Assembly: GCA_021160245.1 (NCBI GenBank)
Contig: JAGHCW010000200.1
Coordinates: 1 to 9,889 of the forward strand
Length of the DNA: 9,889 bases
Direction of reading: 5' to 3'
DNA from: a bacterium
Lineage (GTDB): Bacteria; B130-G9
The notes under the pieces were generated by a model. That model saw only the letters and a program-made list of their open reading frames with translations. It did not search any database and had not been told where the DNA came from. Made by a program: the position numbers and the translations under genes. Of the stretch, positions 1 through 7,395 are shown in pieces (positions within the stretch are counted from its first letter, which is position 1; every line of letters begins with the position of its first letter).

Positions 1-1986
1 AGTGTCCGGCGAAGTCGTGGCGCTTGTCACCCATTCGGCAGTCTCAGCATCCGGAAGCGTCGCGCCGTAGCGGTAATGAAGCGCAACGTAGTCATAGTTA
101 TCGTCACCAAGATCGATTGTGAAAGCTATCTCGACGTTGGGTATTGTGACATATTCAGGCGACTCAGAACTCGAGAGCGAGAGCCTCGGATCGTAAAGGC
201 AGACAGCATCCGCCTCGCCGTCCGGCGCCTCGACGTTGCCAACCACATCTGTCCCACAAAGATAGAAGTTGTAATAGCCCGGCCCCATATCTGGCGCCCA
301 GTCGATCACGCCGGATGCAGCGTCAATCTCCATTCCTGTGTCGCGAAGAGTATCGTCAGCATTCCCATCGAGGTCGGAGTAAGTGTAATAAAGGTGAACG
401 TTGGCGATTCCGGTCAAGGCGTCGCTCGATTCAAAGGCGACGTTGATTGCCGGGTCATTAACCACGCTGTCCGCCTGAGCAGCCGTAACGGGTGGCGTTA
501 CGTCGTAGATGCACGAGGCGCTGGCGCCCGTTGGCGATTCGGTATTGCCCGCAACGTCTGTGGCAAGACTCCTGAAGTCATATATGCCCTCGCCATGCGG
601 GAACTCAAACTCATACGCGCCGTTCTCAACGCCTATCGAGTAGCCGCTCGTCCCGAAAGTATCGAACAGGCCAGAATCGGTCCAGTCGCCCCCATCGAAC
701 CGATACCAAAGGCCAACCTCTGCCACGCCCGACAGCGCGTCGTCTGCCGTATAGTCAATCGCCAATGGCAATGACCGTGTCTGCGTCATACAATCGACGG
801 TTGAATGAGGCGCGGTAGTGTCCAGCATAACGGTGTCGTCAGGCGCAGCAGGAGGAGTCTCAGCATTGCCGGCCCTGTCGGTTGAGATAGTCATCAGCTC
901 GATAGCGCCATCGCCGAAGACGGGGTCCAAATGAAATGCTCCCGATGTGCCTGCTTCCACCAGGCGAGAATCCGTCCAATTGTCATCGCCCGCGTATCTG
1001 AAATAGAGCCTCGTAGAAGCGACGCCAACACCGCTGTCCGACGTCTCGAATTCAACCTCGAAAGGCACAGTAGTTGTCCACTCATCGGCCGAACAGCTAG
1101 ACTGGGGCATGGTGTAGTCGGCGAACACGGTGGCATCGGCAACGGCCGGTGGGTCCTCAACGTTGCCCGCCTCGTCCAGCGACAGCGTGTAGAAACCATA
1201 CTCGCCCTCACCCTCAGAGAACGTGAACGAGAAAGAACCTGAGGCAGCCGCCTTCGTCTGGCCGGTATCCGTCCAGGCGCCGCTATCAAACTTATACCAA
1301 AGAGAAACCTCCGCCAGCTCGTAGTTGTCCGAGGCAGTGTAATTGACTGCGATTGAGGTCTGTTTGGTCACATCATCGCACGTGCAGCTCGATTGCGGCT
1401 TTGTGAGATCATAAACCAGCGTGCAGTCGGCCGCTGCCGGCGCGTCCTCAACGTTATCGTTGTTATCTGTGCAGAGCGTGTAGAGATCGTAAGTCCCCTC
1501 GCCCTCGGGCGCGTCGAAATCGAACGTGCCCGCCTCGCCGCCAGTCGCAAGGCCGCTGTCCGTCCAGGAACCACCATCAAATCTGAACCAGAGCGCCGTT
1601 GACTTGACGCCGCTCAACGCGTCACTTGCCGTGAAATCAACCGCAATCGGCGTCGCGCTGAAATACCCATCGGCGCTCGCGCTTGATGTCGGCGGCGCGT
1701 TGTCGAATATCGTGGTCGCATCGGGCGTTCCCGTCGCATCCTCAACGTTGCCAATCCTGTCAGTCGCTATCGTGTAGAAATCGTAAGTACCGTTGCCAGA
1801 ACTCAGCGTTGCGTTGAAGCTCCCATTGGCATCGCCCGAAGAGTCGATCTCGCTGTAGCCCCCGCCGTCAAACTGCATCCAAAGCGCAACCTCCGCCACG
1901 CCGGAATCATCGTCAGAGGACGTGTAATTGACCGTTATATCGTCCGATTGCGTCCCTCCGGGAGCGGTGCAACTCGACTCCGGCGC
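1..1986 (-). repeat. Tandem Ig-like sandwich repeats, six complete and one partial
   Basis: From residue 1629 the protein repeats a unit of 96-106 residues. Units begin near 1629, 1725, 1824, 1921, 2020, 2126 and 2228, the last cut by the window edge. Each has a P.SS (often SSC) opening, a strand like I.V.YTASD, then SGVA.V.LWYRFDGG.WTD, a TYDFYTIATD turn and AGNVE. The pattern matches bacterial Ig-like repeats in large surface proteins, where such arrays act as stalks or spacers. They follow the second beta-helix module, so they would separate the helices from whatever anchors the C-terminus. The sixth and seventh units are the most diverged. Confidence 0.82.
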
Positions 1987-4900
1987 CTCGTAATCGTCAT
2001 AGACAACGGGGCCGTCGAGCTCGCCTTCAGAGGGCATACGGTCGCTGCCGCCGTGTCCGTCGCTACATGCAAAATGGTATTGCGCAGTCCCCTCTTCCGG
2101 AATCGTCCCCGTCCACGCGTAAGTCCCGTCGGCAGCACTCCCAGAATCGAGCGTCATGTCGTGGGCCGACTCGTTCACGACGACCTCGATTGAACTCGGC
2201 GCATAGCTGTCCTCGCTGTAGTAATCGACTGTGAACGTGAAGTCCGTGTCGGTGCGCCCGTATTCGGGAGAATAGGATTGGTTGGACAGCTGCGGCCCAG
2301 AGAACTCGCGCTCGTAGTGGTAGCCCATATCCACCACTCCGCTATCCGGCGCCTGGTCCGTCCGCGTCGTCCGTGTATCAAGCCCATATTCCGAGGCGTC
2401 ATCGTCTCCTGCGTCAACACAAGGACTCTGATCGCCCTGCCCCGCCGCTGTTTGGCTCAGGTAGTACCCGGCAACGAAGAGCGGGTCCTCGTCGATATTC
2501 CCCTCACCTTCCCAGCCCCCCTCGATGTCGGAATAAGTGATGGTGATTGAACTGCTTGCCTCCACATAGAACTCATTAGGACTGTCTCCCCACAGGACTG
2601 AATTTATGACTGTCGCCGAATTGTCATCGTCCAAGTATATCCCACCGCCAGTGTCCCCTGCTGAGTTGCCCGTGAACGTATTGTTAAGAATGGTCGGGGA
2701 ACTGACCATGCAGTATATCCCGCCGCCGAGGCTGCCGGTCGCATTACGCGCTATCAAGTTATTCTCAATGGTCGGGGAACTGTTATAGCAGGCTATCCCG
2801 CCCCCCAGGTAGTCCGTCGAGTTGTCCGTGATCCTGTTGTTCACGATTGTTGGAGAACCGCCGCGGCCACCTAAGTATATCCCGCCGCCCCACGCCTCCG
2901 CGGAATTGCCGGTGATTGTGTTGTTCTCAATCATCGGGGAACTATTTTCTGAGGATATCCCGCCACGTTGCTTTGCCGAGTTGCCTGAGATCGTGTTGTT
3001 CTGAATAGTCGGGGAACTGTTGTAGAAGCAGCATATCCCGCCGCCGAAGAGGCCAGCTGAGTTCTCTGAGATTGTGTTTTTCTGAATCGTCGGCGAGCTA
3101 TCATGGCAATAAATCCCGCCGCCGCGGCCGTCGCCGTTCTGGTGTTCCGCCGAGTTGGCACTGATAGTGTTGTTGTCAATGGTCGGCGAACTGTTGTTGC
3201 AGCAGCATATCCCGCCGCCGCGTCCAGCGGTGTTATACGAGATCGTGTTGCTTGTGATAGTCGGCGAACTGTTATCGCAGAGCATCCCGCCGCCCCACCA
3301 CGCCGCGGCGTTGTCCGTGATCGTGTTCTTCGATATTGTTGGGGAGCTGTCGCCGCAGAATATACCGGCTCCACCGTCTGGCCATGAATCTCCCTCGACT
3401 GAATTGTTGGCAACCGTATTATTCGCTATGGTGGGAGAACTTTCGTAGCAGCACACGCCACCACCCTTTTCCTCCGCAGAATTGGCATAGACGGCATTGC
3501 CCTCAATCGTCGGCTCACTTCCCTCGCCACAGTAAATCCCTCCACCATTCGTGGCGCTGTTCTGGCTAATGGCGTTATCTCTAATGGTTGGCGAGCTTCC
3601 GAGGCAGTGAATGCCGCCGCCATTCGTGTCAGCAACGTTGTTGGATACTGTGTTGCTCTCGATTGTGGGCGAACTATTGCTGTAGCAGTATATCCCGCCA
3701 CCAGATCGCGCTGCCGAATTCCCGTCGAAGGTGTTCTGTGAAATCAACGGCGAGCTCTCATTGCAGAATATCCCCCCGCCGTCATAAGCGGTATTACTGG
3801 TGATGCTGCAATGCGTGATCTCGGGTGAACCTCCCGCCAGGCAAATTCCGCCTCCGTATTGGCCAGCCTCATTATCTGCGACTTCGTTGTCATCTATTCT
3901 GGGCGAACTGGCGTTGTAGCTTGCTATTCCTCCTCCGTGCTCTGCTGCCGAATTGTCCCCTATGGTATTCTGGGATATGTAAGGTGAACAGGTCTCAGAG
4001 CATGCGATTCCGCCGCCGTAGTATCCTGCAGAATTGCCTGTGATTGTGTTGTCCGTTATAGACGGCTGACTCGATGCTCCATGGCACTCTAGCCCCCCAC
4101 CATTCTCATAGGCTGCATTGAATCGGATCACGTTATATCGGATTGTCGGCGAGCTGTCCCAGCAGGCTATTCCGGCGGCCCAAGTTGCGATGTTATACTC
4201 GATTATATTGCTTTCTATCTCTATGGAGCTGCCGCTCCAGCAAGAGACTCCTCCGCCAGTGCGGTCTGCGGAATTGTGGGCGATGTAATTATTTCTGACG
4301 ATGAGTGAGCTCCCATTGCAGCAATAGACTCCGCCGCCGTCATCATCGTCGCCCGAGCCGTTGGCATTGCCGCCTGTTACCGTAAGCTCAGCAATCGTCA
4401 TATTGCTGACACCATCGCAGTACAGCACATGATAGGCACCCTCCTCCGCATCAAGGATCGATGTCTCCGCATCATCCCCAAGCAAGCAAACCCAACTCTC
4501 CATGTTCAGCGGGAATGTCTCGCCATTTGTGCTCGAGGCAAAAGTGCCGGCCAGCGCGTGGATCGCTACGGGATGCGCCTCGTCACCTGCCACCGACACA
4601 AGGGCGTGCGTGATCGTCAGCCAGGGGTGCTCCTCGCTACCATCGTTGCTGTCGTCGCCGTTCTCAGGATCGACGTAGTAATCCGACTCGTTCCCATAGA
4701 CCGTCGGGCCGTCGTATGCGCCTGAACTCGGATCGCGGTCACTGCCGCCGGCGCCGTCCTCAAAGTAGAAGTAGAACTCGTGATCGCCGGGCGAAAGCGT
4801 CGTGGAATAGGTGTAGTCGCTGTCGGCCCCGCTCCCATCCATCTCATGCGCCTCGTCATCGATATAGACATCCTTGACCGTTGGCTCGTCCCCGTCCTGA

Positions 4901-6870
4901 TCGTAGTAATGGACGCTATAGACAAACGTCGTGTCCGTCGTCCCAGAATCGGGATTGACATCGCCTTCGGATAGCTGAGGCGCGTAGTTGCCGCCCTCGG
5001 TCGGATAGTGATAGCCCATGTCAACCGTGCCGCTGTCGTAAGTGCCGCTGACCTGCGTCGTCCTGTCGTCAAGCCCCGCGTCCTCAGCCGACTGGCTCCC
5101 CGCGTCTATACAAGGGCTATCCGTATCGAGATAGTAATCCCCGTGCGGCCCCGTCACAAAGTCAGGATTCTCATGTATGTTACCCTCCCCCTCGTCCTCA
5201 TCCTCAATGCAGCAATAAGTAGCGGAGCAGCCGTGAAGATCGTCGCCATTGGCCCAGATTATACAATCGGTGATCGGGGAGGAGTGTTCGCCTTGAGAGT
5301 AGATGATCCCTCCGGTGTTCTCGCTTATGGTGTTGTTCCGCACAGTTGGCCAATAGTCCTTACAGTCGCCGTATATCCCCCCACCTGTGCTCGCGGAGTT
5401 GTCATGGATGATGTTGTTTTGAATGATGGCGGAGCCGCTGCAGCGGATCCCACCACCGTAAGTGCCCGCCGAGTTGCTGTATATCACGTTGTTTTCTATT
5501 AGCGCCGAGCACGTGCAGTATATCCCGCCACCATATGAAGCCGAATTGCCGGATATCGTGTTTTCCTTGATCTCGGGGGAACCGGATGTGCAGTATACTC
5601 CGGCCCCTAAATACGACGCGTTGTCAGCTATTGCGTTGTCAGCTATCTCGGGTGAGCTGTCCAGTTCGGAGTATATTCCTCCGCCTTGTAGCTGATATTG
5701 TGTTCCGTAATTGCCGGTGATCGAGTTACCCACTATGTCCGGAGAACTATCATCCGTGCAGAAAATACCTGCGCCCCTCGCCTTGCTGCCCGTTGCTTGG
5801 TTCGCCGATACGTCATTGTCCTGGATGGTTGGTGAGCAGTTGTCTTCGCAGTATATTCCCCCTCCGCGCTGTGCGGAGTTTTCCCGTATTGTGTTATTCG
5901 TGATGGCAGGCGAACAATTATCAAGGCAATAGACGGCCCCTCCATAATCCCCAGCAGAGTTGTCATTGAGTATATTGGCATTGATGATCGGCAGGCAGCT
6001 GTCCTCACAGAATACAGCGCCACCGTATCTATAAGCTTCGTTGCCCACAACTGTGTTATTTGCTATTGTGGGGCTGCTGTGAAAACAATTTATGCCTCCG
6101 CCCCCTTTACCAGTGGTGCCTCCATTATTGCTTGTAATCGTATTGCTCTCGATTGTCGGAGAACTGTAATAGCACGACACACCGCCACCATAGTCACCTG
6201 CGCTGTTTCCGTTGATCGTATTGTCCGTGATGTCGGGCGAGCTGTATCGGCACGAGATTCCACCACCGTCTTCGTCCGCTACGTTTGCGGAGATGACATT
6301 GCCTTCAATGACAGGGGAGCCATAATAGCAGTATATCCCGCCGCCGTGGGCATCATTTCCCTCCGTGGAGTTCGCCGTGATGATGTTCCCTTGAATCGTC
6401 GGAGAGCTATACCACGAGTGAATGCCAGCGCCTCTCTTGTCATTGTCATTGGGTCCATCGGCATACCCACCCGTTATCGTGAGCTCCACAATGCTGAGGT
6501 TATCGACCTCGTGGCAGTAGATGAGGTGATAGGCTCCTTCCTCGGCGTCGAGGATTGTGGTTTCTGGGTCATCCCCAACGAGACAGACCCAGCTCTGCAT
6601 GTTGAGCGGATATGTCTCGCCGTTGGTTGAGGCGGCGTAGGTGCCGGCGGCAACGTGGATCGTGTGGGCATTGCCGTCGCTGCCGGGATTATTCGAGGCG
6701 ATCCAATCGAGGGCGTGCGTGATCGTCCGCCAGGGACTCTCTTCGGTCCCATAGTTGTTGTCATGTCCAGTATCTGCATCGACGTAATAATCCGCGGCCG
6801 TGCTGAAGCAGACAGCCCCCAGAGATAGCAACACAGAAATGAACAACACAAAAGCAAACTTAACCTTCAT
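1..6870 (-). CDS. Giant secreted beta-helix / Ig-like repeat protein, C-terminus beyond window
   Basis: The frame is open for 2,290 codons from the ATG at 6870-6868 to the left edge with no stop, so the gene is longer than the window shows. Residues 1-26 are a signal peptide: basic start MKVK, hydrophobic core to about 20, likely cleavage near STA-A at 25/26. Cys21 lacks a good lipobox. Order: N-cap 27-130 (YYVD, PW.TI, LDAEEGAY; DUF1565/pectate-lyase-like); beta-helix A about 131-548; C-cap with SPCIDAG and VDMGYHY (about 565-623); sandwich domain about 628-726; second N-cap 731-832; helix B about 833-1428; C-cap SPCVDAG/VDMGYHY; second sandwich about 1526-1626; then Ig-like repeats from 1629. 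No catalytic residues of a polysaccharide lyase are recognisable, so an adhesive, structural or glycan-binding surface role is inference. Gly, Asn, Ser and Asp are abundant and Lys is scarce in the helices. A strong ribosome site sets the start. The cell-wall or outer-membrane anchor, if any, lies outside the window. Confidence 0.93.
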   Translation of the reverse strand, partial: MKVKFAFVLFISVLLSLGAVCFSTAADYYVDADTGHDNNYGTEESPWRTITHALDWIASNNPGSDGNAHTIHVAAGTYAASTNGETYPLNMQSWVCLVGDDPETTILDAEEGAYHLIYCHEVDNLSIVELTITGGYADGPNDNDKRGAGIHSWYSSPTIQGNIITANSTEGNDAHGGGIYCYYGSPVIEGNVISANVADEDGGGISCRYSSPDITDNTINGNSAGDYGGGVSCYYSSPTIESNTITSNNGGTTGKGGGGINCFHSSPTIANNTVVGNEAYRYGGAVFCEDSCLPIINANILNDNSAGDYGGAVYCLDNCSPAITNNTIRENSAQRGGGIYCEDNCSPTIQDNDVSANQATGSKARGAGIFCTDDSSPDIVGNSITGNYGTQYQLQGGGIYSELDSSPEIADNAIADNASYLGAGVYCTSGSPEIKENTISGNSASYGGGIYCTCSALIENNVIYSNSAGTYGGGIRCSGSAIIQNNIIHDNSASTGGGIYGDCKDYWPTVRNNTISENTGGIIYSQGEHSSPITDCIIWANGDDLHGCSATYCCIEDEDEGEGNIHENPDFVTGPHGDYYLDTDSPCIDAGSQSAEDAGLDDRTTQVSGTYDSGTVDMGYHYPTEGGNYAPQLSEGDVNPDSGTTDTTFVYSVHYYDQDGDEPTVKDVYIDDEAHEMDGSGADSDYTYSTTLSPGDHEFYFYFEDGAGGSDRDPSSGAYDGPTVYGNESDYYVDPENGDDSNDGSEEHPWLTITHALVSVAGDEAHPVAIHALAGTFASSTNGETFPLNMESWVCLLGDDAETSILDAEEGAYHVLYCDGVSNMTIAELTVTGGNANGSGDDDDGGGVYCCNGSSLIVRNNYIAHNSADRTGGGVSCWSGSSIEIESNIIEYNIATWAAGIACWDSSPTIRYNVIRFNAAYENGGGLECHGASSQPSITDNTITGNSAGYYGGGIACSETCSPYISQNTIGDNSAAEHGGGIASYNASSPRIDDNEVADNEAGQYGGGICLAGGSPEITHCSITSNTAYDGGGIFCNESSPLISQNTFDGNSAARSGGGIYCYSNSSPTIESNTVSNNVADTNGGGIHCLGSSPTIRDNAISQNSATNGGGIYCGEGSEPTIEGNAVYANSAEEKGGGVCCYESSPTIANNTVANNSVEGDSWPDGGAGIFCGDSSPTISKNTITDNAAAWWGGGMLCDNSSPTITSNTISYNTAGRGGGICCCNNSSPTIDNNTISANSAEHQNGDGRGGGIYCHDSSPTIQKNTISENSAGLFGGGICCFYNSSPTIQNNTISGNSAKQRGGISSENSSPMIENNTITGNSAEAWGGGIYLGGRGGSPTIVNNRITDNSTDYLGGGIACYNSSPTIENNLIARNATGSLGGGIYCMVSSPTILNNTFTGNSAGDTGGGIYLDDDNSATVINSVLWGDSPNEFYVEASSSITITYSDIEGGWEGEGNIDEDPLFVAGYYLSQTAAGQGDQSPCVDAGDDDASEYGLDTRTTRTDQAPDSGVVDMGYHYEREFSGPQLSNQSYSPEYGRTDTDFTFTVDYYSEDSYAPSSIEVVVNESAHDMTLDSGSAADGTYAWTGTIPEEGTAQYHFACSDGHGGSDRMPSEGELDGPVVYDDYEAPESSCTAPGGTQSDDITVNYTSSDDDSGVAEVALWMQFDGGGYSEIDSSGDANGSFNATLSSGNGTYDFYTIATDRIGNVEDATGTPDATTIFDNAPPTSSASADGYFSATPIAVDFTASDALSGVKSTALWFRFDGGSWTDSGLATGGEAGTFDFDAPEGEGTYDLYTLCTDNNDNVEDAPAAADCTLVYDLTKPQSSCTCDDVTKQTSIAVNYTASDNYELAEVSLWYKFDSGAWTDTGQTKAAASGSFSFTFSEGEGEYGFYTLSLDEAGNVEDPPAVADATVFADYTMPQSSCSADEWTTTVPFEVEFETSDSGVGVASTRLYFRYAGDDNWTDSRLVEAGTSGAFHLDPVFGDGAIELMTISTDRAGNAETPPAAPDDTVMLDTTAPHSTVDCMTQTRSLPLAIDYTADDALSGVAEVGLWYRFDGGDWTDSGLFDTFGTSGYSIGVENGAYEFEFPHGEGIYDFRSLATDVAGNTESPTGASASCIYDVTPPVTAAQADSVVNDPAINVAFESSDALTGIANVHLYYTYSDLDGNADDTLRDTGMEIDAASGVIDWAPDMGPGYYNFYLCGTDVVGNVEAPDGEADAVCLYDPRLSLSSSESPEYVTIPNVEIAFTIDLGDDNYDYVALHYRYGATLPDAETAEWVTSATTSPDT
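2587..4374 (-). repeat. Beta-helix B: about 22 coils of roughly 26 residues
   Basis: Residues about 833-1428 repeat the same coil as helix A, with cysteines at 850, 877, 903, 929, 957, 1036, 1062, 1089, 1114, 1141, 1172, 1198, 1223, 1255, 1281, 1361 and 1387. The long run 1036-1281 has a cysteine in every coil. Several coils have doubled or tripled cysteines (850-851, 1140-1141, 1222-1224, 1280-1281). Four coils replace the ladder cysteine with Ser or Leu (near 984, 1306, 1333 and 1413), and in one it is shifted by one residue (1010). Seven additional coils relative to helix A point to extension by coil duplication. Confidence 0.88.
5227..6480 (-). repeat. Beta-helix A: about 15 coils of roughly 26 residues
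   Basis: Residues about 131-548 repeat a unit close to GGGIYC..SSPTI..NTI..NSA. Cysteines in the GGGIxC position fall at residues 181, 207, 233, 262, 288, 315, 341, 371, 427, 452 and 477, a spacing of 25-30 residues (about 78 bp). Invariant glycines mark turns, the Ile/Val positions should face the core, and the Asn positions resemble the asparagine ladders of known parallel beta-helices. Coils 1, 10, 14 and 15 lack the ladder cysteine. The fold assignment rests on the repeat pattern alone and is strong. The ligand is unknown. Confidence 0.88.
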
Positions 6871-6877
6871 GGCGATA

Positions 6878-6882
6878 CCTCC
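6878..6882 (-). promoter_or_regulatory. Shine-Dalgarno site of the giant gene
   Basis: On the minus strand GGAGG lies seven bases before the ATG at 6870. Together with the signal peptide that follows directly, this fixes the start. Confidence 0.85.
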
Positions 6883-6893
6883 ATCTTTCACGC

Positions 6894-6939: not shown

Positions 6940-7395
6940 TCACAACCCCGAGGATTTATAGACTATCTTTATCACCCAGCCAACTGCTGCCGCTACAAGG
7001 GCGATCATTAGAATCGTGTTGACTACCGGTATGGCAGACGGGCCAAGCATCCCCCACATAATAAGCGCGAGTCCAGCTCCGATAAAGGCGCCGAAGATGG
7101 CGCCGACAACCACTATGCCGGACCCCACACCTGAAATGCCACCGATGAGAGCGCCAAGCAATACCATCAGAACCAGCAGGCGGCGCTGGTCTGATGAGGA
7201 GTCCTCATCAATGATTCCGCTCCTGATCTGCCTTCCGCCCCTGGTCTGCATTCCAGTCGGTTCCTGGACAGGCATGAGTTCGACACGGCAGGAGTTGAGA
7301 GGCCATCCTAGCTGTTGGCAAGCGTCCGAAGAGAGAATGGCCTCAATTTCTGCCTTCTCTTTTGTGATTAGATTCGTTATGCGGTATCGAGGCAT
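6940..7395 (-). CDS. Small membrane protein with soluble N-terminal domain, unknown function
   Basis: This protein has 151 residues. Residues 1-45 form a soluble segment (YRITNL at 4-9, then EAILSSDACQQLGW around 18-31 and a second Cys at 36). It resembles a small domain common in uncharacterised bacterial proteins, in which an EA.SA..AC..LGW.....C pattern recurs; that comparison is from memory. Residues 46-72 are a polar, charged linker. Three hydrophobic segments follow at about 73-94, 95-116 and 123-145, the first two rich in small residues and glycine (GALIGGISGVGSG), like tightly packed or oligomerising helices. No catalytic motif is visible. The start has GAGAGG eight bases upstream, and the only other ATG codons are deep inside. 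It precedes the giant secreted-protein gene by 69 bp on the same strand with no terminator between, so co-transcription is likely. A membrane partner role for the giant protein is speculation. Confidence 0.8.
   Translation of the reverse strand: MPRYRITNLITKEKAEIEAILSSDACQQLGWPLNSCRVELMPVQEPTGMQTRGGRQIRSGIIDEDSSSDQRRLLVLMVLLGALIGGISGVGSGIVVVGAIFGAFIGAGLALIMWGMLGPSAIPVVNTILMIALVAAAVGWVIKIVYKSSGL

Follow-up and report, generated by a model that had tools for sequence, protein, structure and literature searches.

The protein encoded on the minus strand of the window (the whole stretch of DNA analysed, a contig of 9889 bases) carries cysteine at one recurring position in most coils of two predicted beta-helices, and this column is probably a stack of buried, reduced thiols that helps to pack the core in place of an aliphatic stack. 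Each right-handed coil would end one strand in G-I-x-C with the Ile and the Cys facing the core, and stacking of the coils in register would bring the Cys side chains into a near-continuous inner column. Cys would take a site that is held by Ile, Leu, Val or a small residue in other beta-helices, where the sulphur could pack tightly with little steric demand. Such a large number of free thiols may be affordable in an exported protein because the cell seems to be without an envelope system for disulfide formation and to live free of oxygen. Burial, reduced state, packing role and anaerobic habitat are all features that we infer.

Organization of the gene and its product

The main ORF starts at position 6891 (GTG) or 6870 (ATG), runs off the contig and comprises at least 2297 amino acids. 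Since the contig ends inside the ORF, the C-terminus of the protein is missing. Residue numbers follow the original prediction and count from the Met at 6870; the GTG start at 6891 adds 7. From the ORF list, the profile matches, the coil listing and the models described below, the following parts were assigned:

1-6891, minus strand: giant exported protein with signal peptide, beta-helix 1, linker domain, beta-helix 2 and Ig-like repeats (ORF list; Pfam/NCBIfam profiles)
6793-6870, minus strand: putative Sec signal peptide (MKVKFAFVLFISVLLSLGAVCFSTAA) from the alternative ATG start (read from the sequence)
5227-6480, minus strand: beta-helix 1, 15 coils, 11 with ladder Cys (coil listing; AF2; VIA)
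2587-4374, minus strand: beta-helix 2, 22 coils, 17 with ladder Cys (coil listing; AF2; VIA)
1-2586, minus strand: C-terminal Ig-like/OmpL47-type repeats, cut by the contig end (NF047446, Big_13)

Each beta-helix is preceded by a DUF1565-like cap, and the linker domain lies between the helices. PF13229 covers the helices with an E-value of 1.9e-87 and 291 bits (cut-off 25.9), and a score of 61.6 bits for TIGR03804 (cut-off 19.45) assigns the protein to the parallel beta-helix repeats. Further Pfam matches were NosD, DUF1565 and Chlam_PMP. The profiles for the GGA[ILV]/FxxN repeat of Chlamydial Pmp proteins also scored above their cut-offs (PF02415, 24.9 bits vs 20.6; TIGR01376, 29.5 vs 15), but these repeats overlap the generic beta-helix signal, and an autotransporter barrel at the C-terminus, as in Chlamydial Pmp proteins, would fall in the part of the gene that is cut off by the contig end. 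Membership of NosD (TIGR04247, 105.7 bits vs a curated cut-off of 300) or of the LIC10774/LIC10365 surface proteins (NF047854, 129.4 bits vs 380) did not result. The C-terminal repeats match NF047446 (OmpL47-type) with 42.4 bits at a cut-off of 40 and Big_13 below its cut-off; judged by these profiles, they likely constitute a surface stalk. Upstream of the main gene lie a 151-aa ORF, a tRNA-Arg and a MATE transporter. The 151-aa ORF (6940-7395, minus strand) is directly adjacent and has hydrophobic segments, and no Pfam or NCBIfam family was found for it.

Cysteine at the sixth coil position

In the 37 coils of both helices, the sixth position of the motif GGGIx? is occupied by Cys 28 times, by Ser five times, by Leu three times and by Gly once. 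This recount agrees exactly with the 28 of about 37 coils stated in the original prediction, and the ten-coil run that had been placed at residues 1036-1281 is correct in that numbering. Given 1.5% Cys in the remainder of the helices, the binomial probability of 28/37 is below 1e-30; the helices contain more than 4% Cys overall, mostly in this single column. Equivalent Cys residues on several consecutive coils, as in an FdlA-like ladder, occur in runs of 8 and 3 in helix 1 and of 5, 10 and 2 in helix 2, and the equivalent place is taken by Cys in the cap coil of each helix:

6514-6516, minus strand: Cys119, cap coil before helix 1, equivalent ladder place, kept in orthologue L075 (sequence reading; alignment)
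5758-6330, minus strand: 8 consecutive ladder Cys, helix 1 (coil listing)
5440-5592, minus strand: 3 consecutive ladder Cys, helix 1 (coil listing)
4417-4419, minus strand: Cys818, cap coil of helix 2, equivalent place, kept in orthologue L075 (sequence reading; alignment)
4000-4323, minus strand: 5 consecutive ladder Cys, helix 2 (coil listing)
3028-3765, minus strand: 10 consecutive ladder Cys, helix 2 (coil listing)
2710-2790, minus strand: 2 ladder Cys in a run, helix 2 (coil listing)

Because Cys takes 77% of this column in helix 2, a run of ten is to be expected there (P about 0.18 when the coils of that helix are shuffled), and the run was rejected as a separate piece of evidence.

A second, short Cys column was observed four residues past the ladder Cys, where Cys takes the place of the usual Ser of SSP. 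It consists of Cys 292, 319 and 345 on three consecutive coils of helix 1 (CEDSC, CLDNC and CEDNC; window 5227-6480), and Cys 961 of helix 2 lies in CSETC. In several paralogues about 12% of the coils have Cys at positions 15-16, the corner of the Asn ladder (NCTI, GCTI), which from the sequences is perhaps a second, alternative Cys column.

Predicted fold and orientation of the column

AF2 models were calculated from single sequences with no alignment, and fold matches were obtained by VIA realignment of Foldseek candidates. Both helices were modelled as beta-helices (helix 1: pLDDT 76.2, pTM 0.81; helix 2: pLDDT 75.0, pTM 0.75). Aligned by VIA with Vag8, a solved right-handed beta-helix, the helix 1 model reached a Z of 35.6 (365 residues, rmsd 2.7 Å) and the helix 2 model a Z of 27.2 (356 residues, rmsd 3.0 Å). 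At the level of predicted structures, models and alignment agree on a solenoid of stacked three-strand coils, and according to them both helices are right-handed parallel beta-helices. Foldseek itself matched neither model below E 0.001, phmmer with helix 2 found no match among PDB sequences up to E 1, and a search with a 13-sequence coil profile retrieved weak relatives only. The weak Foldseek hits for helix 1 included mutants of FdlA.

In the model of helix 2, I-x-C falls within a predicted strand in 22 of 22 coils. In the modelled coils the ladder Cys stands between GGGI and the long loop, a place that resembles the PB1-T1 side if our naming of the strands holds. Over 471 coils of 42 proteins, the ladder position is Cys in 60%, followed by Ser, Phe, Ile, Leu, Val, Gly and Ala. 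Polar or charged residues make up 3% at this sixth position, compared to 12% at the fifth and 31% at the seventh, the flanking, outward ones; the fourth position is aliphatic in 471/471 coils by definition of the search. Since the Cys shares its predicted strand with the aliphatic residue two places earlier, and polar or charged residues are so rare at its position, the ladder position should point into the core. When the 13-sequence profile was aligned to the solved alginate lyase AlyF-OU02, Leu and Ile stood at the ladder position. The parallel beta-helix with stacked, inward Cys residues that had been proposed from the sequence is thus supported by the modelled fold, the VIA matches and the Cys positions in strands; the inward orientation of the stacked column follows from residue alternation and is to that extent tentative.

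Conservation and recurrence

An orthologue from another genus (L075) is 61% identical to the window protein. Of the 23 alignable ladder Cys of the window protein 19 are kept in it and the other four are Phe, Val, Thr and Ala, while four non-Cys coils of the window protein carry Cys in L075, where the longest run of consecutive Cys is 13. The linker, the caps and the Ig-like part align closely, but whole coils were inserted or lost, which suggests a fast turnover of coils next to nearly unchanged flanks. In this orthologue the ladder, whose conservation among homologues the original prediction proposed to compare, is kept despite coil gain and loss. The host genome (3.4 Mb) has 78 Beta_helix matches, many of them in long, exported-looking proteins, and several paralogues have Cys in every coil; from these matches the Beta_helix proteins of the host are a large paralogous family of predicted surface proteins.

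A residue-neutral coil pattern and its Cys version were run over 290 genomes. Three or more such coils occur in 34 of the genomes, and 254 of their 420 coils have the Cys. Relatives in several phyla share it, with ladder Cys in 19/37 coils in Cloacimonadota, 19/26 in Phycisphaerales, 8/13 in Neomarinimicrobiota and 5/10 in Bacteroidetes, but 1/9 in Desulfobacterales; as the window protein itself served as query for these relatives, the sample is biased to Cys. A tblastn search against phages found nothing.

Redox setting and chemistry of the column

Searches of the host genome (95% complete) detected neither DsbA or VKOR nor COX1 or cytochrome bd, while control genomes gave matches. Among the 34 genomes the median fraction of ladder Cys is 0 with DsbA/VKOR and 0.5 without (P 0.03; P 0.056 excluding the window's own family), and likewise 0 with COX1 and 0.5 without (P 0.008; 0.018 excluding the own family), although these comparisons ignore phylogeny. 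Exceptions are a genome with weak DsbA matches, in which 33/42 coils have Cys, and two related genomes with COX1 and 27/42 Cys coils. With these exceptions and phylogeny uncorrected, the correlation is suggestive only. Anoxia may not even be required, since the Phycisphaerales genome with a ladder is a MAG labelled ALOHA. Three DsbA-like matches contain one in-frame TGA (G027:C53:110972-111544, G174:C70:3130-3699 and G050:C31:97400-97972); from their sequences they may possibly be selenocysteine proteins or sequence errors.

We consider it unlikely that adjacent Cys residues form inter-coil disulfides, from coil n to n+1, that harden a surface fibre. The protein is exported, as judged by its signal-like N-terminus, stacked residues of a beta-helix are about 4.8 Å apart, and consecutive Cys pairs are commoner than in shuffled columns (171 vs 156.5, P 0.001), all of which would fit such bonds. 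However, residues stacked directly on parallel strands have a poor disulfide geometry, runs of 3 and 5 leave odd thiols, and even run lengths show no excess (65% vs 67% in shuffles). Moreover, neither DsbA nor VKOR was found in the host, and genomes that have them tend to contain fewer ladder Cys.

Equally doubtful is the view that the column has no function and that a Cys of an ancestral coil was spread by coil duplication at a site tolerating any small or hydrophobic residue. The gain and loss of coils between orthologues could spread an arbitrary residue, and Ser, Phe, Ile, Leu, Val, Ala and Gly are also accepted at the position. Against this, third-base identity at three Gly columns is 0.33-0.34 compared to 0.32 expected from the Gly codons of the ORF, and yet Cys stands at 76%. 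Synonymous sites are thus saturated, which makes the coils old, and selection rather than recent coil duplication accounts for the retained Cys. The same Cys preference in several phyla also speaks against this view.

Binding of soft metals or iron-sulfur clusters by the thiol column, or its use to conduct electrons or to sequester metal along the helix, appears improbable. With thiols spaced one to a coil, chelation of Cu(I), Zn or Cd in rows is conceivable, and the helices match NosD-like profiles, but the NCBIfam NosD model remains at 105.7 bits against its cut-off of 300. Metal sites predict strict retention and partner ligands, contrary to the observed exchange of Cys for Ser, Phe, Ile, Leu, Val, Gly and Ala in an often interrupted column. 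No second strongly conserved Cys column exists (the next highest reaches 12%), and an inner, packed position offers little room. We give very little credence to the idea that, in lineages that lack an envelope disulfide system, long exported thiol stacks are chemically active instead of only packing the core, and respond to redox state or metals by binding soft metals or by oxidising and then rigidifying or unfolding on exposure to oxygen.

The original prediction had left disulfides, metal or cluster binding and buried thiols side by side. Buried reduced thiols are favoured by the missing matches for DsbA, VKOR, COX1 and cytochrome bd together with the lack of an even-run bias, whereas the odd runs weigh against disulfides and the exchange for Ser, Phe and small or aliphatic residues against metals and clusters.

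In exported bacterial proteins Cys is expected to be paired or avoided. A recent study reports a tendency of obligate anaerobes to keep cysteines out of their exported proteins (2025; PMC12453122). The large surface-protein family of the window, whose lineage is apparently anaerobic, runs counter to this. Provided that its thiols are buried and reduced, Cys would count as an ordinary core residue of extracellular proteins wherever an oxidising system is not detected. The Cys content of beta-helices could then give a clue to envelope redox conditions in uncultured lineages, and caution would be due in modelling such Cys columns as disulfides.

Comparison with known systems

The claim that the ladder is unusual for an exported protein needs to be narrowed. 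It is less singular than implied, given the ladders in the same genome, in several phyla and in known proteins. Searches for the motif strings GGGIYC, GGGIFC and GGGIAC returned no relevant paper in the literature searched. Short ladders are already known from FdlA and InlJ; the length, the recurrence over several phyla and the exported setting in which no oxidising system was found are undescribed in that literature.

Proteins of PF13229/TIGR03804 share fold and repeat family with both window helices, but the solved members that were aligned (AlyF-OU02, Rhombotarget A) have Leu/Ile or Asn/Ser at the ladder position and not Cys. The leucine-rich repeats of listerial InlJ have been described as a 'cysteine ladder' (Bublitz et al. 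2008, cited in PMC3196904). As far as this secondary account goes, InlJ is, like the window protein, an exported bacterial repeat solenoid with Cys stacked in successive repeats, although of the leucine-rich type and not a beta-helix. FdlA, a fucoidan lyase of Flavobacterium sp. SA-0082, has an N-terminal domain that is also a right-handed parallel beta-helix with a Cys column on consecutive coils. The column of this enzyme has five Cys, which occupy the T2-PB3 juncture of coils 4-8; its authors termed it a cysteine ladder and proposed that it is stabilising and not catalytic (PMC9410043). In contrast, the window family has up to ten Cys in a run (13 in the orthologue) within a recurrent sequence motif of surface proteins, and its ladder apparently occupies a different corner of the coil, where the GGGI strand ends.
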